This document shows, piece by piece, positions 2,369 to 10,800 of a DNA stretch of 64,000 bases. This stretch comes from Halorubrum sp. 48-1-W. GTDB lineage: Archaea > Halobacteriota > Halobacteria > Halobacteriales > Haloferacaceae. Under the pieces are notes generated by a model, which was given only the letters and a program-made list of their open reading frames with translations, ran no database searches and was not told the origin of the DNA. Within the stretch, counting starts at the first letter, position 1, and the number at the start of each line of letters is the position of its first letter. Both the position numbers and the translations under genes were made by a program. The DNA is taken from NCBI RefSeq assembly GCF_003287355.1, contig NZ_QMIM01000016.1:1-64000 (forward strand), read 5' to 3'.

Positions 2369-2902
2369 CTAGTGTGCGGCTTCGCCGGCGGGAGCGTGCA
2401 TGTCGTCGATCCGGAGAATGAGGACGTTCGCGGTGTCGTCCTTACCGTCGACGGTCCCCTCGATGAGCAACTTCGAGAGCGGCGTGGGCCCGACCGTCAC
2501 CGAGTCGCCCTCGTGGAAGCTACGTACCGAGCCCTGAACGTGGATCTCCGCCCGGCAGAGTTCGGGGTGGTGGACGCTCGAGAGGTCGATCCCGTCGACG
2601 TTCACGCCCTCGACCGTCTCACCTTCGTGTTTGATCGGGACGTACGCGGGCTCGTCCATCCGCTGGATGTCGAGCGCCTCGTAGGCGGTCGACGTCGGTT
2701 TGTAGCCGCCTTTCGGGCCTGGGACACCCTCGACGAGTTGGAGCGCCTTCAGGCTCTGCATCTGGTTCCGGATGGTTCCCGGGTTGCGGTCGACTTCCTC
2801 GGCGATCGCCTCCCCCTTGACGGCGTCCTCCTCCTCCCCGTAGAGGTTGATGAGCGCCGAGAGGATGCTCTTCTGGCTCGACGTGAGTTCGATCGATGAC
2901 AT
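2369..2902 (-). CDS. Winged-helix transcriptional regulator (Rrf2-like, haloarchaeal)
   Basis: A 177-residue protein. The N-terminal winged helix (about 5-75) begins IELTSSQKSIL and contains GEAIAEEVDRNPGTIRNQ and a wing GPKGGYKPT. It is followed by a linker and a beta-rich C-terminal segment ending LRIDDMHAP. Similar haloarchaeal proteins are usually annotated as Rrf2-type regulators, but the Fe-S cysteine cluster of IscR/NsrR is absent; I see a single cysteine, in PELCRAE. The start MSSIELT (2902) is preferred; MAMSS at 2908 is equally possible. It lies upstream of orc on the same strand, 177 bases away, so separate transcription is likely. Target unknown. Confidence 0.75.
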   Translation of the reverse strand: MSSIELTSSQKSILSALINLYGEEEDAVKGEAIAEEVDRNPGTIRNQMQSLKALQLVEGVPGPKGGYKPTSTAYEALDIQRMDEPAYVPIKHEGETVEGVNVDGIDLSSVHHPELCRAEIHVQGSVRSFHEGDSVTVGPTPLSKLLIEGTVDGKDDTANVLILRIDDMHAPAGEAAH

Positions 2903-2998
2903 GGCCATGAGTAGATGGCGACCCCGCATAAAGGCGATGGAAGTCACTTATAAAAGAACCTGGGCGAGGCAGCCCGGTTGGTTCACCGCTACCGGCGT

Positions 2999-3295
2999 TC
3001 ACGCGTAGAGCTGCCGGTATCGAACGTACGCTACGGGGCTCGCGAACACGACGACGAGCCCGATCACGACGAGGACGAAGCCGATATCACCGAGGAGAAC
3101 GAACAGCCCGAAGCCGACGAACGCGATCACCGATCCCGTGAACGCGACGGTGATCATCGCCCCCGCCGGACCGATCTCCTCCGGATCGACGGGTCCCGGC
3201 TCGCGATCGCTTCCGTCCGTATCACCTCCGGCCGGATCACCTCCGGCCGGATCACCTCCGTCCGTATCACCTCCGTCCGCGTCGTCACCGTCCAT
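2999..3295 (-). CDS. Small acidic two-helix membrane protein, hypothetical
   Basis: A 98-residue protein. The N-terminal 35 residues are an Asp/Gly repeat (GGDTDGGDPAGGD...), then come two hydrophobic helices (about 46-66 and 69-90) and a short basic tail ending RYRQLYA. The start ATG at 3295 is the only ATG that does not overlap arginase. The frame stays open upstream, and the region 3296-3370 reads protein-like (AEIDRIRHGFLAG), but no usable start codon was seen there. The Asp/Gly stretch is encoded by short tandem repeats. Function unknown. Confidence 0.65.
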   Translation of the reverse strand: MDGDDADGGDTDGGDPAGGDPAGGDTDGSDREPGPVDPEEIGPAGAMITVAFTGSVIAFVGFGLFVLLGDIGFVLVVIGLVVVFASPVAYVRYRQLYA

Positions 3296-3466
3296 GCGTA
3301 CCCGTTCGTCACCTGCCAGGAAACCGTGACGGATCCGGTCTATCTCCGCACCGATGGCCTCGAGTAGCGTGTTCCCCGGCGTCGATCCAGCGCGAATCCA
3401 GTTCTCCCTGGGGCCGACTAACCACGGATCCTCCCCTTTCAAGCGACAGGGGGGTCCCTTACCGGT

Positions 3467-4372
3467 ATGACGAGAGTCAAGATCATCGGCGCACCGACCG
3501 ACTACGGAGCCAACCGACGCGGGGTCGACATGGGGCCGTCGGCGATCCGCTACGGCGGGCTCGGGGACGAGCTGGCCGGCGCAGGCGTCGACGTCGTCGA
3601 CGCGGGAGACCTCGCGGTCCCCCGCGCCGAGGAACGGGACCCGGACACCGACGCCCCGTCGGAGGGGGAGGCAAAGTTCCTCCACGAGGTCGCGGACGTC
3701 TGCCGGCGGCTTGCGGACGTGGTGGAGGGGACACTCGCCGAGGGGGCGGTCCCGCTGGCGCTCGGCGGCGACCACTCGATCGCGATCGGGTCGCTCGTGG
3801 GGGCCGCCCGCGACGCCGACATCGGCGCGGTATGGTTCGACGCCCACGCCGACCTCAACACCCCGTCGACAACGCCCTCGGGCAACGTCCACGGGATGCC
3901 GCTCGCGGCCGCGCTCGGGATCGGCGATTTCGCGGACACCGAGTGGGCGAACGCTTCGGGACTCGAACCGGAGAACGTCGCGCTCGTCGGACTCCGGTCG
4001 GTCGACGCAGAAGAGGTCGAACTCCTTCGTGAGCACGGGTTCACCGCCTACACGATGTCCGATATCGACGAACGGGGGATCACGGACGTGACGGAGGACG
4101 CGTTGAACGCGGCCTCGGCGGGCGTCGACGGCGTTCACGTCAGCCTCGACCTGGACTGGCTCGACCCCAAGGAGGCGCCAGGCGTGGGGACGCCCGTCCG
4201 CGGCGGAGTTACCTATCGGGAGGCCCACAGCGCGATGGAGATCGTCGACGAGTTCGACTGCCTCCGCTCGATGGAGGCCGTCGAGGTCAACCCGACGCTC
4301 GACCAGCACAACGAGACGGCGGAGCTCGCGACGGAGCTTGCCGCGAGCGCGTTCGGAAAGCGCGTTATCTAA
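3467..4372 (+). CDS. rocF: Arginase (ureohydrolase family)
   Basis: Hydrolyses L-arginine to ornithine and urea with a binuclear Mn centre. The 301 residues carry all family metal motifs: GGDHS, WFDAHADLN, and SLDLDWLDP. The substrate loop NTPSTTPSGNVHGMP is of the arginase type rather than the agmatinase type. Length matches bacterial and archaeal arginases. It stands alone with no arginine-catabolism partner nearby, diverging from the small membrane protein. Agmatinase or formimidoylglutamase activity cannot be fully excluded from sequence. Confidence 0.9.
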   Translation: MTRVKIIGAPTDYGANRRGVDMGPSAIRYGGLGDELAGAGVDVVDAGDLAVPRAEERDPDTDAPSEGEAKFLHEVADVCRRLADVVEGTLAEGAVPLALGGDHSIAIGSLVGAARDADIGAVWFDAHADLNTPSTTPSGNVHGMPLAAALGIGDFADTEWANASGLEPENVALVGLRSVDAEEVELLREHGFTAYTMSDIDERGITDVTEDALNAASAGVDGVHVSLDLDWLDPKEAPGVGTPVRGGVTYREAHSAMEIVDEFDCLRSMEAVEVNPTLDQHNETAELATELAASAFGKRVI

Positions 4373-4438
4373 CGGGCGATTCCGACGGCGGAACCGGTCA
4401 GATCTATCGCATCGGTCACTCAGTCGAGCGATCAGTAC

Positions 4439-4472
4439 GTCCGAGCGATCTGTCCGTCCGAGCGATCTGTCC
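4439..4472. repeat. 17-bp tandem duplication between convergent genes
   Basis: Two perfect copies of gtccgagcgatctgtcc, preceded by a degenerate copy, between the arginase stop and the DUF7117 stop (4478). The unit is not a multiple of three and lies wholly in noncoding DNA. Confidence 0.85.
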
Positions 4473-4477
4473 GGGAG

Positions 4478-5401
4478 CTACGGTTCGGACTCGTCGATCC
4501 GGTCCCGTGCCCGCTCGAGGGAGGCAGTGGTTCCGGATCGAACGTAGTCGCCGAGGGCGTTCGCCGCCGCGACGAGCGCGTCGGCGGTTGCGGGTTCGAC
4601 GTCTCCCTGGAGCGCCTCCACTCGCCGGATTCTATCACGGAGTCGCTCGAGCGCCTCGCGTGCGGGCGCGACACGATCGACGTCGACATCGTCAACAGCA
4701 TCGACGTCGACATCGTCAACAGCATCGACGTCGACATCGTCAACAGCAACGTCGACGTCGGCATCCTCAACGTTGGCGTCCCGTTCACCGTTCCGTTCGG
4801 CGTCGACCCCCACGCCAACGTCTCGGACCGAGACCGCTCCTTCTCCCTTGCCTCCCGCCGGTTCCCGGAGGTCCGCCAGTTCCTCGAGGAAGGTCGACAG
4901 GTCCGCACGATACTCGTCGACCGAGCGGACTGCAGCCATGCCGCGGGCCTCCCGCATGGCTTCGGGGACGACGGTCGTGTCGGGACGGTCGCCGTCGTCC
5001 GCGCCGGCGAGGAGCGCGAGGAGATATTCCCGGTCGGCGTCGGTCGGGTTCCGAAGCCGGTCGTAGACGTCTACCGCCTCGATCAGCTCCCGCGCCGCGA
5101 GGTACGTCGAGTCGAGGTCGCGAAGCTCCCCGCTGTGGATGAACCCTCGCTTGTGGACGTACTCCCGGAGGTCACGTTTCAGGTCGTCGATGCCTTCGGT
5201 GGGGAGCGTTCCGCGCGCCTCGCCGAACCGGTCGCGGTGGGGGCTCAACTCGAGCGTGACGGGGGAGTCGGTGTGGGTCGCACGCGCGGTCGTCCCGACA
5301 CTACGGAGGCTCCCACAGTCGGGGCATTCGACGGTGCCGGTCTCGAAGTACGACCAGCGGTTCCCGCAGTCGTGACACTTCCGCTCGCCGCGGATCTTCA
5401 T
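4478..5401 (-). CDS. Zinc-ribbon protein of the haloarchaeal DUF7117 type
   Basis: A 307-residue protein with an N-terminal TFIIB/rubredoxin-like zinc ribbon (CHDCGNRW, then CPDCGS, residues about 9-32). An alpha-helical domain follows (about 65-185), then a variable acidic linker (about 205-240) and a C-terminal helical region. The linker is encoded by about three copies of a 24-bp repeat (4673-4750), giving DVDAVDDV units. I recognise the overall layout as a haloarchaea-specific family without known function. The ribbon could bind nucleic acid or protein. It diverges from the DUF7544-like gene. Confidence 0.8.
   Translation of the reverse strand: MKIRGERKCHDCGNRWSYFETGTVECPDCGSLRSVGTTARATHTDSPVTLELSPHRDRFGEARGTLPTEGIDDLKRDLREYVHKRGFIHSGELRDLDSTYLAARELIEAVDVYDRLRNPTDADREYLLALLAGADDGDRPDTTVVPEAMREARGMAAVRSVDEYRADLSTFLEELADLREPAGGKGEGAVSVRDVGVGVDAERNGERDANVEDADVDVAVDDVDVDAVDDVDVDAVDDVDVDRVAPAREALERLRDRIRRVEALQGDVEPATADALVAAANALGDYVRSGTTASLERARDRIDESEP
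4673..4750. repeat. 24-bp in-frame tandem repeat inside the zinc-ribbon gene
   Basis: About three copies of a 24-bp unit containing gacatcgtcaacagcatcg encode an Asp/Val/Ala repeat in the acidic linker. The period keeps the reading frame. Confidence 0.8.
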
Positions 5402-5468
5402 TGTCGAGGCTTCGTGGACTCACAGCTAAAACGCTACGGGTCGATCGTCGACCGTCGTCGTCGAGCAC

Positions 5469-5540
5469 GTGCTGGTCGTTGAGTGTGTGCTGGTCGTTGA
5501 GTGTATGCTGGTCGTTGAGCGCATGCTGGTCGTCGAGCGG
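5469..5540. repeat. Four 18-bp tandem copies in a divergent promoter region
   Basis: Four near-perfect copies of gtgctggtcgttgagtgt lie between the divergent zinc-ribbon and DUF7544-like genes. They are upstream of the TATA element of the latter, so they could be spacer DNA or regulator sites. No dyad symmetry is obvious within a unit. Confidence 0.85.
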
Positions 5541-5565
5541 CGATCGCAGACCGGACCGAGTGAAA

Positions 5566-5580
5566 ATCATATATATGGGA
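5566..5580 (+). promoter_or_regulatory. TATA element for the DUF7544-like gene
   Basis: aatcatatatatggg is centred about 28 bases upstream of the ATG at 5601, the spacing expected for a leaderless haloarchaeal transcript. It supports that start over longer frames. Confidence 0.65.
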
Positions 5581-5600
5581 TGCCCACGAAACGCCCGATC

Positions 5601-6947
5601 ATGAGTTGGAGTGCCGTTGACGCCGTGGACGACGCGGTCGAGGCCACCCGTAGCTTCCTGTTCCCGTTCAGTCTCGTCCGCTGGGCGAAACTTGCCCTCC
5701 TCGTCCTCCTGATGGGAGGTGGCGTACGCACGAACGTCTCGGTCCCGTTCTTCCCGAATCCCGAGTTCACGGCGGGTCCGGGAGGGACGGTAGAGCCGGG
5801 ATCCACGGGTAGCGCCCCGCTCTTCGGGCCGAACGGGCTCCGAGGGGACGTCGGGTTGGAGACGGTCGACGTGAACCTCGTCATCGCGATAGCGGCGGTC
5901 GTCGTCGCCGTCGCCGTCGCGTTCTCGATCGCGTCGCTCTCGCTTCGGCTGGTCTTTTACGATGCGCTTCACAAGAACGAGGTCGAACTCTGGCGACCGT
6001 TCGTCGGTCGGCTGCGGCAAGCGTTCGGGCTGTTCGTCTTCTCGACGCTACTCAGCCTGCTGATGGCGATCCCGATCGTCGTCGCCGTGCTGGCGGAGGC
6101 GGATCTCGGGTGGGAGCCCGCGGACGCGCTCGGTTCCGTCGTGGCGAGTGTTCCGACCTGGGGGATCGGGCTGTTGATGTCGGTCGCGGTCCTACTCGCG
6201 GTCGTGGTGCTCTTCGTGCTCCGGTTCACCTACGAGTTCGTCGTTCCGGTGATGGTCCTCCGTAACGAGGGCGTCCTCGCAGGATGGAGTCGGTTCTGGC
6301 AGACGCTTCGTGCGTCGTGGGTCGAGTTCCTCCTGTATCTGGTCGTCCACTTCTTTTTGGGGGTCGGTATCTCGGTCGCCGAGAGCTTCGTCTTCCTCTT
6401 CGTCGGTGGCCTCGTCGCGGTGTTCGCGGGCGTCGCCGTGTTGATCGCCGCTGGGGTGCTGGGCGGGTTGCCAGCCATGACCGGAACGACGGTCGGACTC
6501 GCGGTGCTTGCGGTCGTCGTCGCCGTCGCGTTGCTCGCGCTCTTGATCCTGCTACTTCCGGTTCGGCTCCTCACGCGGACGTATCTGATCGCCTACGAGG
6601 TCTCGACGCTCGGCGGCGTCGATCCGGAGCTCGCACTGCTGGCTCCGGCGATCGATCCGAACGTGTCGGATGGATCAAGCGATGGTGGCGGGTCGAGTGG
6701 TTCGGATCGGGATGACGGGCCGGGTGGTTCTGGTGGCTCTGGTGGCTCTGGTGGTTCTGGTGGTTCTGGTGGCTCTGGTGGTTCTGGTGGTTCTGGTGGT
6801 TCTAGTGGATCGGGAGGGGTCGGTGGTGTAGAGAATACGGCAGATCCGGATCGACGGGATACCACGAGTGAGGACCCTGCTCCGGAGGATCGACCCGTGG
6901 AACGTTCTCGAGATCGATCCGGTGATCTCTTCGGAAACGATCGGTGA
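5601..6947 (+). CDS. Polytopic membrane protein, DUF7544-like
   Basis: A 448-residue membrane protein starting MSWSAVDAVDDAVEATR, then FPFSLVRWAKLALLVLL. I count about six hydrophobic helices up to residue 350. The C-terminal tail of about 100 residues is a Gly-Gly-Ser repeat (6722-6808) followed by an acidic stretch, probably cytoplasmic and disordered. The N-terminal layout matches a haloarchaeal family of unknown function (DUF7544), close to glycerophosphoryl-diester-phosphodiesterase-type membrane domains. The leaderless TATA supports this start. The stop codon lies inside an 18-bp duplication. Confidence 0.8.
   Translation: MSWSAVDAVDDAVEATRSFLFPFSLVRWAKLALLVLLMGGGVRTNVSVPFFPNPEFTAGPGGTVEPGSTGSAPLFGPNGLRGDVGLETVDVNLVIAIAAVVVAVAVAFSIASLSLRLVFYDALHKNEVELWRPFVGRLRQAFGLFVFSTLLSLLMAIPIVVAVLAEADLGWEPADALGSVVASVPTWGIGLLMSVAVLLAVVVLFVLRFTYEFVVPVMVLRNEGVLAGWSRFWQTLRASWVEFLLYLVVHFFLGVGISVAESFVFLFVGGLVAVFAGVAVLIAAGVLGGLPAMTGTTVGLAVLAVVVAVALLALLILLLPVRLLTRTYLIAYEVSTLGGVDPELALLAPAIDPNVSDGSSDGGGSSGSDRDDGPGGSGGSGGSGGSGGSGGSGGSGGSGGSSGSGGVGGVENTADPDRRDTTSEDPAPEDRPVERSRDRSGDLFGNDR
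6722..6808. repeat. Gly-Gly-Ser coding repeat
   Basis: Tandem 9-bp units (ggtggctct or ggtggttct) encode a GGS repeat at the C-terminus of the membrane protein. This kind of sequence is expected to vary in copy number between strains. Confidence 0.9.
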
Positions 6948-6973
6948 ACGAAGACCGATCGGTGAACGAAGAG
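6938..6973. repeat. 18-bp duplication spanning a stop codon
   Basis: cgatcggtgaacgaagac is repeated once with one change. The first copy contains the stop codon (6945-6947) of the upstream membrane-protein gene, so the stop-region sequence is duplicated. Confidence 0.85.
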
Positions 6974-7009
6974 ACAGTGGGTCGATGAACACACAGAATA
7001 GGAGCAAAT

Positions 7010-7096
7010 GGAAGGAGAACACGGGGAAGGAGAACACGGGGAAGGAGAACACGAGGAAGGAGAACACGGGGAAGGAGAACACGGGGAAGGAGAACA
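7010..7096. repeat. 15-bp purine-rich tandem repeat, about six copies
   Basis: Six copies of ggaaggagaacacgg (one carries a base change) lie between the DUF7544-like gene and maeB. The strand is strongly purine-biased. It sits upstream of the maeB TATA element at about 7160. Confidence 0.9.
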
Positions 7097-7159
7097 AATC
7101 GACGTCCTGTGGTGTCAACGGGGTTAGACACGTGTCGAAAGGAAATCTCGACGAGTACG

Positions 7160-7172
7160 GATAGCTTTTTAC
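7160..7172 (+). promoter_or_regulatory. TATA element for maeB
   Basis: atagctttttact lies about 30 bases before the ATG at 7196, consistent with a leaderless transcript. Confidence 0.55.
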
Positions 7173-7195
7173 TCCGTTCCCGAAAGGGGGTATTC

Positions 7196-9448
7196 ATGGG
7201 ATTAGACGACGACGCACGCGAGTACCACCGGCGGGACCCGCCCGGGAAGATCGAGATCTCGACGACGAAGCCCACGAACACCCAGCGAGACCTCTCGTTA
7301 GCCTACTCTCCAGGTGTCGCCGCGCCGTGCCGGGACATCGCCGCGGACCCGGAATCGATCTTCGAGTACACGGCGAAGGGGAACATGGTGGCTGTCGTCT
7401 CGAACGGCTCGGCCGTGCTCGGCCTCGGCGACATCGGCGCCGCAGCGTCGAAACCCGTCATGGAAGGGAAAGGGGTTCTGTTCAAGCGGTTCGCCGACAT
7501 CGACGTCTTCGACATCGAACTCGACATCGACGAGGTCGACCCGTTCTGTACCGCGGTCTCCGCGATGGAGCCCACCTTCGGCGGGATCAACCTCGAGGAC
7601 ATCAAGGCGCCCGAATGTTTCGAGATCGAAGAGCGTCTCCGCGAGGAGATGGACGTACCCGTCTTCCACGACGATCAGCACGGGACCGCGATCATCTCGG
7701 GTGCGGCGTTGCTGAACGCGACCGACATCGCCGACAAGGAACTCGCCGACCTCGATATCGTCTTCTCCGGCGCGGGCGCGTCCGCGATCGCGAGCGCTCG
7801 GTTCTACGTCTCGCTCGGTGCGAAACGCGAGAACATCACGATGTGTGACTCCTCGGGGATCATCACCGAGGAGCGAGCCGAGGCGGGAGACGTGAACGAG
7901 TACAAACGGGAGTTCGCGAGCGACGTCGACGGCGGCGATCTCGCGGACGCCATGGAGGGTGCGGACGTGTTCGTCGGGCTCTCCGTCGGCGGGATCGTCT
8001 CACAGGAGATGGTCCGCTCGATGGCGGCGGACCCGATCCTGTTCGCGATGGCGAATCCCGACCCGGAGATCACCTACGAGGACGCGAAATCGGCTCGCGA
8101 CGACACCGTGATCATGGCGACGGGACGGTCCGACTACCCGAACATGGTGAACAACGTCCTCGGGTTCCCGTTCCTGTTCCGCGGGGCGCTCGACGTGCGC
8201 GCGACGGAGATCAACGAGGAAATGAAGCGGGCGGCTGCGACGGCGCTCGCGGAGTTGGCTCGGAAGGACGTCCCGGACGCGGTCGTGAAGGCGTACGGCG
8301 ACGACCCGCTCCAGTTCGGCCCCGAGTACGTCATCCCGAAACCGCTCGATCCCCGCGTGCTCTTCGAGGTCGCTCCCGCGGTCGCACAGGCGGCCATGGT
8401 GTCCGGATCCGCGCGGACCGACATCGACCTCGAGCAGTACCGCGAACGGCTCGAGGCTCGGCTCGGCAAGTCCCGCGAGATGATGCGGGTCGTGTTGAAC
8501 AAGGCGAAAAGCGACCCGAAGCGGATCGCGCTCGCGGAGGGGACCGACGAGAAGATGATCCGGGCAGCCTACCAGCTCTCCGAACAGGGGATCGCCGAGC
8601 CGGTGTTGCTCGGCGACGCCGACGAGATCGCTCGCACGGCGGACGGCCTCGGCCTCTCGTTCCATCCGGAGATCGTGGACCCCGACGAACGGGACGTTAC
8701 CGCGTACGGGGACCAGTTGTACGAGCTCCGGAAACGGAAGGGCATCACTCGACGAGAGGCGAACGAACTCGTTCGGCGGGACACGAACTACCTTGGGAGC
8801 GTCATGGTGAAGGCCGGCGACGCCGACGCGATGTTGACCGGGCTCACCCATCACTACCCGTCAGCGTTGCGACCGCCGCTTCAGGTGATCGGCTCGGCAG
8901 CCGACACCGACACCGTCGCCGGGGTGTACATGTTGACGTTCAAGAACCGGGTCGTGTTCTGTGCGGACACGACCGTCAACCAGGACCCCGACCGGGAGAC
9001 GCTCGCGGAGATCACCCGTCACACCGCCGAGCTCGCCCGACGGTTCAACGTCGACCCGCGCGCGGCGGTCCTCTCGTACTCGAACTTCGGGAGCGTCGAC
9101 AACGAGGGCACGCGAAAACCGCGTGAGGCGGTCGAACTCCTCCACGAGGACCCCGATGTCGACTTCCCGGTCGACGGGGAGATGCAGGCAGACACCGCCG
9201 TCGTCGACGAGATCCTCAACGGAACCTACGAATTCTCCGAACTCGACGAGGCCGCGAACGTGCTCGTGTTCCCGAACCTCGAGGCCGGTAACATCGGCTA
9301 CAAACTGCTTCAGCGGCTCGGCGGCGCTGAGGCGATCGGACCCATGCTGGTCGGAATGGACGAACCCGTTCACGTCATCCAGCGTGGCGACGAGGTGAAG
9401 GACATCGTCAACCTGGCCGGCGTCGCGGTCGTCGACGCACAGGAGTGA
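7196..9448 (+). CDS. maeB: NADP-dependent malic enzyme with phosphotransacetylase-like domain
   Basis: Oxidatively decarboxylates malate to pyruvate. The 750 residues form the hybrid MaeB type: a malic enzyme part (about 1-430, with [22 protein letters not shown], and the nucleotide-binding FSGAGASA) and a C-terminal phosphotransacetylase-like domain (about 435-750, with [17 protein letters not shown]). In enterobacterial MaeB the second domain is regulatory, responding to acetyl-CoA, rather than catalytic. Start [18 protein letters not shown] is the usual haloarchaeal N-terminus and fits the TATA element. It reads toward the putative origin at 9.76-10.28 kb. Confidence 0.95.
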
Positions 9449-9549
9449 CCGTGGGCACGCGCCGGTAACTGCGGTCGCGGTCACGGGTGAACGGCCGGAG
9501 ATGCGGTTGGCGTCACCGAGTTCGAAGCGTCGTCGCGTACGATCCCGGC

Positions 9550-9618
9550 GTTGTGACCGGGATGTTCGACTCGTTGTGACCGGGATGTTCGACTCGTTGT
9601 GACCGGGATGTTCGACTC
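9550..9618. repeat. Three perfect 23-bp tandem copies
   Basis: Three identical copies of a 23-bp unit (containing gttgtgaccgggatgttcg) lie about 100 bp after the maeB stop, on the left side of the putative origin. The unit shows no match to the ORB core, so I do not call these initiator sites. Confidence 0.9.
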
Positions 9619-9756
9619 GACCATGAGCGGGTGAAATCCGCCGTCCGTTGAAATCGCGTTCGCTGAAAACGTGATGTCCGCTTGGTCGCGATCTTCGTTT
9701 TGCTACTGAGTTCGCGATTTTCGTTTTCGCGATGCTTCGGATACATTGCTGATGTG

Positions 9757-9803
9757 GGGGACACACCGTGTTTCCGGTGAAATGGGGTGATGGTGGGGGT
9801 GGT
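9757..9803 (+). other. ORB-like element 1 with G-rich tail
   Basis: Core acacaccgtgtttccggtga (9761-9780) is followed by aatgggg and a G-rich tail (to about 9803). The core and tail recur, inverted, at 10236-10282. Archaeal ORBs are bound by Orc1/Cdc6 and typically combine a dyad core with a G-string. The tail here points toward the AT-rich core. Confidence 0.75.
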
Positions 9804-9845
9804 CTTTCGTTCAGGACGGGCCCTGCTTTCGTCGAGTACCGTCGA

Positions 9846-9955
9846 GTACCAACTACTTCACTAACTATTTGTAAGACACTGTATAGTTGATTTAAGTATA
9901 ACCAGTACTATTATATATAACACTCGAGAATATTCCAGTAAGTCAAATGTAGTCA
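9846..9955. other. AT-rich core, candidate duplex unwinding element
   Basis: The stretch from about 9851 to 9947 is the most AT-rich of the window by eye, with runs such as tatagttgatttaagtataa and actattatatataacac. It sits between the two inward-facing ORB-like elements, closer to the left one, where an origin would be expected to melt. Confidence 0.65.
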
Positions 9956-10013
9956 CGAGACGAACTTCGTGTAGTCACATCACGGGATACACTAGAAGAC
10001 GTGATCTAGTCAC
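9950..10013. repeat. Three tagtcac repeats beside the AT-rich core
   Basis: tagtcac occurs at 9950-9956, 9972-9978 and 10007-10013, all in the same orientation, right after the AT-rich core. The arms catcacg and cgtgatc around 9977-10005 also form a weak dyad. These could be secondary protein sites of the origin; there is no direct evidence of function. Confidence 0.5.
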
Positions 10014-10052
10014 GATCGACGACAACACGTGTCGATCTCGCGTATCAGGAAC

Positions 10053-10070
10053 CCACGACGGAAGTCGTGG
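10053..10070. other. Perfect 7-bp hairpin with GGAA loop
   Basis: ccacgac-ggaa-gtcgtgg is a perfect stem-loop. It resembles the hairpin near the right ends of haloarchaeal IS200/IS605-type (TnpB) elements, which from memory often read cacgactgaagtcgtgg. No TnpA or TnpB frame is present, so at most it is a relic. Confidence 0.4.
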
Positions 10071-10235
10071 ACTTGCCAGTGGACCACCGCTCTGACCGAA
10101 TGATTCAGGTTGATTCGTGATCCGTGAATCGTGGCCGGATGACCCGTAAATCGCACTCGTGGCCCGTTTGACTGGTCGTCTGTATCCTGTTTTCTCGGAC
10201 TTCTCGTCTCGGACCACACCTCGTTTCCGATGAAT

Positions 10236-10282
10236 CCCCACCCCCAACCACCCACCCATTTCACCGGAAACACGGTGTGTGT
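10236..10282 (-). other. ORB-like element 2 with G-rich tail (inverted)
   Basis: On the minus strand the core acacaccgtgtttccggtga is identical to element 1, followed by aatggg and a G-rich tail (to about 10236). It faces element 1 across the AT-rich core. Confidence 0.75.
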
Positions 10283-10327
10283 CTCAACGAATTCAATACA
10301 CTCCGTAGAACGGGATCGTTGCTGGCG

Positions 10328-10600
10328 GGATGAACGCCTCCAAAGCCTCAGCCGCTCGATTCTACAGAGTAGTGAGCACAACTTCGGTGAACACTTCCAA
10401 AGCCCCAGCCGCGAGGGCTCACGGCTTCGTCGCCGGCGGCGTTGCCGCCGGCTTCCAGAGGCGCGGAGCGCCTCGCGGCCGTTCGCCATTCGAGGGCTCG
10501 CGACTGCCCCTTTGAGTCCCGCCCCGCACAGCCCCGCAACCGCACCTCATACCTCCCCAGCCTCGCGCCCTACCGGGCGCTCGGAGGCGCGCCACCGTAA
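10328..10600. repeat. Structured intergenic element with hairpins
   Basis: Begins with two direct copies of a cctccaaagcctcagccgc-like unit (10337-10356 and 10394-10412), 57 bp apart. Three strong hairpins follow: gccggcggc/gccgccggc (10432-10452), gaggcgc/gcgcctc (10458-10474) and gcgccc/gggcgc (10565-10580). I recall very similar sequence (ccaaagccccagccgcgagg and ccctttgagtcccgccccgc) as a multi-copy intergenic repeat in Halorubrum genomes. That is recollection, not a search. No convincing protein is encoded. The rest up to 10800 shows no feature. Confidence 0.5.
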
Positions 10601-10800
10601 AATCGTTCGTTCTTTCAGCTGTACTGAGTGAACCCCGCATCAGACGTGTGAGCCGTTTCGAGACACCTTCTCAGGAAGCTACCACACCCGGAAAGATGTC
10701 AAGCCGCTAGCGAGCGTGAGTAGTGTCGTGCTGTCGGCCGAGTTCCCACACCTAACCGGCAGTCTAGGACATCTAGAGAGCCACGCCTCGAAAACGGTGG

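Follow-up and report, generated by a model that had tools for sequence, protein, structure and literature searches.

A probable rRNA-linked replication origin of Halorubrum sp. 48-1-W, apparently separated from its orc gene by an inversion

The interval at positions 9761 to 10280 of the 64,000-nucleotide (nt) stretch of Halorubrum sp. 48-1-W DNA analyzed here (the window) is in all likelihood the rRNA-linked chromosomal replication origin of Halorubrum, the orthologue of oriC2-orc5 in Haloferax volcanii, moved off its orc gene by an inversion. Archaeal origins are usually sought beside orc/cdc6 genes, and such adjacency is thought to aid the control of initiation. In the present genome, the origin appears to have been parted from its initiator by a rearrangement that can be mapped, and the corresponding distances in sister species are approximately 0.5, 3, 12, and 23 kb, a series that offers a natural test of whether origin-initiator adjacency matters. 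Adjacency to orc is a habit of such origins and a rule for predicting them, and predictions based on it would overlook origins like the one at 9761-10280; an adjacent orc1/cdc6 gene has been used as an origin search criterion (PMC3528665).

Anatomy and conservation of the inverted ORB pair

The original prediction of an origin at this locus started from a 20-nt core present twice in opposite orientation, and all of the coordinates that it gave are correct. Both copies are exact (9761-9780 on the + strand and 10261-10280 on the − strand), and each continues into a G-rich tail that, as predicted, points inward (9781-9799 and, on the − strand, 10260-10242). The resulting ORB arms are 39 nt each, 90% complementary, and 442 nt apart (9761-9799 and 10242-10280). 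The AT maximum of the window does lie between the arms, with the 60-, 100-, and 200-nt maxima at 9861, 9852, and 9828, respectively, and no supported gene is found there. The elements of the interval are as follows.

9761-9799, + strand: ORB-L, on the malic-enzyme side, ACACACCGTGTTTCCGGTGAAATGGGG plus a G-rich tail, conserved in six relatives
9852-9948: AT-rich core (77% AT over 60 nt), a putative duplex unwinding element
9949-9980, + strand: TAGTCA repeat pair, 22 bp apart, clade conserved in the alignment with relatives
10007-10013, + strand: third TAGTCAC, degenerate in relatives (GTTCACG at the corresponding site)
10214-10237, + strand: inner degenerate ORB, CACACCTCGTTTCCGATGAATCC, facing ORB-R, conserved in six relatives
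10242-10280, − strand: ORB-R, orc-proximal in relatives and the far one here (core search and comparison with relatives)

The interval has the at least two inverted ORBs around an AT-rich element that characterize archaeal ORB-type origins, together with the G-string that halophiles carry at the ORB end. Two further ORBs had been overlooked, one at the orc start (2199-2218) and the inner one at 10214-10237. With up to three mismatches allowed, the 18-nt ORB core matches the window four times, at 2199 (1 mismatch), 9763, 10216 (3 mismatches), and 10261, versus 0.03 matches expected, and four matches were reached in no shuffle. The possibility that the pair is a general repeat scattered through the genome, which had been raised along with the prediction, is ruled out because a 25-nt ORB, again with up to three mismatches, was found only at the 9761-10280 pair in the whole genome (3.58 Mb, 69 contigs). 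The three TAGTCAC repeats predicted between the arms are all present on the + strand (at 9950, 9972, and 10007), but only the first two are conserved in relatives. GC skew is too weak for a judgment both in the window contig, where there is a maximum at 9820 but a small one, and over the 420 kb that surround the origin's homologue in a complete relative (G020).

Using the interval as a query, we identified matching ORB pairs in nearly all genomes of the same genus, which the named loci identify as Halorubrum. Of 80 named haloarchaeal loci with the orthologous orc, 77 have an inverted ORB pair no more than 3 kb upstream of the gene. The count relies on a consensus pattern, and in a few loci (e.g., that of cibi) one of the two arms counted is the promoter ORB. 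In nearly all of the 80 loci an ORB is located approximately 26 nt upstream of orc, and in most Halorubrum the promoter ORB and the nearest origin ORB are tens of base pairs apart. Between the window and six relatives, the ORBs are 86 to 100% identical and the inner ORB 96 to 100% identical, versus 22 to 42% for the spacers. Identity is intermediate for the TAGTCA pair and for the AT core, being 48 to 72% at positions 9899 to 9948 of the latter. This conservation of the ORBs over the spacers, part of which may predate the inversion, argues for continued selection on the origin. The origin reading is thus supported by orthologous, inverted, G-tailed pairs upstream of orc and by elements that are conserved while spacers are not, and 9761-10280 very probably represents a genuine origin of chromosomal replication, the activity of which we infer from sequence.

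Two minor features lie on the malic-enzyme side of the interval. Three perfect 23-bp tandem units are located at 9549-9619, between the malic enzyme gene and the origin, and 9457-9563 is the decayed remnant (78%) of an HTH/DUF7839 gene, the intact form of which adjoins the origin in relatives.

Initiator gene and type of origin

The nearest orc gene had been placed 7.6 kb from the pair instead of beside it, and this proved accurate, as the gene (986-2190/2245, − strand) is approximately 7.5 to 7.6 kb off. Its product contains a Cdc6 lid and a Cdc6_C winged helix and is presumed to be the initiator of the origin at 9761-10280. Three features make up this locus.

361-921, + strand: TATA-box-binding protein (TBP), which accompanies orc in the rRNA-linked locus
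986-2245, − strand: orc1/cdc6-family initiator, Orc5 type, with a likely start at ATG 2190 (TIGR02928, 424 bits)
2199-2218, + strand (orc being read on the − strand): lone ORB, 9 to 28 nt upstream of the orc ATG (core search, 80 loci)

The probable identity of this gene as Orc5 rests on synteny and on Haloferax orthologues other than the H. volcanii protein, to which it is 88% identical and which show the gene order orc-HTH-TBP. In the literature, H. volcanii orc5 is HVO_1725, located at oriC2 with rrnB 6 kb off. The oriCb family, which includes a Halorubrum member, is reported to be linked to an rRNA operon (PMC3528665). An orthologous Orc5-type initiator, as in oriCb and H. volcanii oriC2-orc5, is present in the window. 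The rRNA linkage of the oriCb type is seen in G020, where orc and TBP are followed by 16S, tRNA, 23S, and 5S genes; the window contig ends before the rRNA operon.

The window orc does not have the setting of oriC1-cdc6A, whose Cdc6A orthologue has the sec and polD small subunit genes as neighbors. For the assignment of the oriC1 initiator, two orcs were compared, and the one on contig C6 scored 365 bits to Sulfolobus Cdc6-1 versus 207 bits for the window orc. The C6 gene adjoins a signal-peptidase-like reading frame (read from the sequence), and the PolD small subunit gene is also on C6. Identity with the universal oriC1 is ruled out by the TBP/rRNA context and the separate C6 orc, and the origin is predicted to be of the rRNA-linked, H. 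volcanii oriC2-orc5 (oriCb) type and not the ancestral euryarchaeal oriC/oriC1.

The window locus shares with H. volcanii oriC2-orc5 (HVO_1725) and the oriCb family (Hvo_orc5, Hbo_14700, and Hla_1524; PMC3528665) an orthologous orc, TBP and rRNA neighbors, and inverted G-string ORBs around an AT-rich core; unlike that family, it has its origin approximately 7.5 kb from orc after the inversion, with an extra inner ORB and a TAGTCA pair. Haloarcula hispanica oriC1-cdc6A (PMC3936714) also has two inverted G-string ORBs around an AT-rich region, with G-rich motifs just inside the ORBs, but it is served by another orc family, and the oriC1 orc of the window's genome is the separate C6 locus. The origins of Halorubrum cibi, rubrum, and G020 have the same ORBs, AT core, TAGTCA pair, and inner ORB and differ in that the origin is still at orc, across a 0.5- to 0.6-kb spacer that holds a dispersed repeat.

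We propose that an AT-rich unwinding element is framed by the two inverted, G-tailed ORBs plus the inner ORB and that Orc5 (986-2245), as knowledge of the family suggests, would bind to the ORBs, open up the core, and load MCM. Two inverted copies of a dispersed intergenic repeat most likely recombined, and the resulting inversion of approximately 8 kb would have taken both the malic-enzyme block and the origin to a distance from orc. The orc promoter retains an ORB of its own, probably for autoregulation. We infer that Orc5 now works on the origin in trans, which is plausible because cdc6 in cis is unnecessary for ARS activity and plasmid replication in H. hispanica (PMC3936714). That finding also bears on the proposal that the interval is a dormant or dead relic and that, since the inversion, the chromosome has fired other origins (oriC1 on C6 or other orc loci). 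With about nine orc/cdc6 paralogues in the genome, a dormant origin known in H. mediterranei (PMC4595724), and most archaeal origins needing an adjacent initiator according to the literature, a relic would not be without precedent, but we consider it unlikely, given that the ORBs and inner ORB have stayed conserved although the spacers are no longer alignable and that the cognate orc is intact, 98 to 99% identical to its nearest orthologues, and still preceded by its promoter ORB.

Gene order and the proposed inversion junctions

The ancestral order, as found in relatives, is TBP-orc-origin-malic enzyme-DUF7544-DUF7117, and that in Hrr. cibi is NDH-HTH-arginase-DUFs-malic enzyme-origin-orc-TBP, where NDH is an NADH-dehydrogenase-like gene. 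In the window, the order is TBP-orc-HTH-arginase-DUF7117-DUF7544-malic enzyme-origin-NDH, with the HTH-to-origin block reversed between orc and NDH relative to cibi, an arrangement that a single inversion would produce. The arginase, HTH, and NADH-dehydrogenase-like genes are located beyond the DUF genes on the same contig in cibi, aquaticum, and ZY8, and G020 and G011 have the malic-enzyme block with these three genes apart from the origin. Approximately 9 kb between arginase and DUF7117 in cibi is absent from the window. The ORBs themselves are turned around, in that the signature of the orc-proximal ORB of relatives (ATTCATCGGAAACGAGGTGTGG, on the inner-ORB side) is at the far end in the window. 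The segments concerned are as follows.

2246-2370: left inversion junction, where the orc-side spacer meets the HTH gene at its 3' end, seen in 1 of 53 genomes of the genus (the window's own)
2369-9448: inverted block of an HTH repressor-like gene, arginase, DUF7117, DUF7544, and malic enzyme/PTA
10281-10790: right inversion junction, containing a copy of the dispersed intergenic repeat (10301-10670)

The left junction is spanned by a single alignment in the window's genome and in none of the others among the 53 of the genus. Both the orc-origin and the HTH-NDH spacers of cibi, G020, and G011, that is, the breakpoints, hold the repeat, the two copies being in opposite orientation, and therefore the substrate required for inversion by recombination is present in relatives. 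The right junction of the window keeps the repeat, and the left has only a short fragment resembling the repeat end; the left copy would thus have been mostly lost, and the exact recombination path is uncertain because that junction is without the repeat body. A lineage-specific inversion, presumably by such a recombination event, would explain both the gap of approximately 7.6 kb and the missing adjacent orc. The orc1/cdc6 gene that normally adjoins an ORB-type origin is approximately 7.5 kb off here, and we read its displacement as a secondary loss because the orthologous element adjoins orc elsewhere.

Tens of copies of the 10301-10670 repeat are spread over the genome, with many at contig ends, and the family also occurs in other Halorubrum. 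As the right junction passes through such a repeat, misassembly is possible there. That the block as a whole was misjoined via this repeat and that the origin is truly beside orc is nevertheless very improbable, even though the left junction recurs in none of the other genomes among the 53. No long repeat is present where orc meets HTH at that junction, and both this junction and the adjacency of malic enzyme and origin are independent of the right junction; the segment HTH-arginase-DUFs-malic enzyme-origin is continuous, so a false right join would leave the origin away from orc all the same.

Origin-orc distances across the clade

Measured from the promoter ORB to the nearest origin ORB, the distance is 0.5 kb in cibi, 0.6 kb in G020, 0.6 kb in rubrum, and 7.6 kb in the window. 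The three exceptions to the pattern seen in 77 of 80 loci are aquaticum, ZY8, and halodurans, all of them members of the same clade as the window's genome. In ZY8 a histidine kinase/response-regulator gene intervenes and the distance is 3.1 kb; in halodurans it is 11.9 kb, the origin there being divided between two contig ends and apparently inverted; in aquaticum approximately 22.7 kb of glycan-related genes intervene, on two contigs joined via a 95-bp overlap. The inserts of ZY8, halodurans, and aquaticum have no match to each other or to the window block, and a shared ancestry of the separations is accordingly unsupported. As the clade tree also has weak internal support, the number of events is the count of distinct arrangements. 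We lean slightly toward the view that one Halorubrum clade has repeatedly lost the cis linkage of origin and initiator while keeping an intact origin, such that adjacency would be dispensable in nature here. No report of a separation of this kind was found in the literature searched, the coverage of which was incomplete.

Two observations concern the genomes compared. No match to the malic enzyme was found in the halodurans genome (L223, G063), where its neighbors are present. The record named Halobellus captivus ZY8 (L107) groups with the window's Halorubrum clade (98% orc) and is probably misnamed.

The interval can hardly be an Orc-binding regulatory or titration site in place of an origin, after the manner of the ORB-rich region downstream of H. 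hispanica oriC2: Orc would be expected to bind ORBs at any location, and a lone conserved ORB does occur elsewhere in the clade, but inverted, G-tailed ORBs around the strongest AT-rich element of the window and a conserved core have the layout of an origin, and the same element in relatives is an orc-adjacent candidate origin. The lone ORB, ACACCTCGTTTCCGGTGAAA, is present in all seven clade genomes checked (L217; G000 contig C11:97572-97591). In the window's genome it separates a nucleoside diphosphate kinase-like gene from a convergent gene, and it may itself be a site of Orc titration or of regulation.
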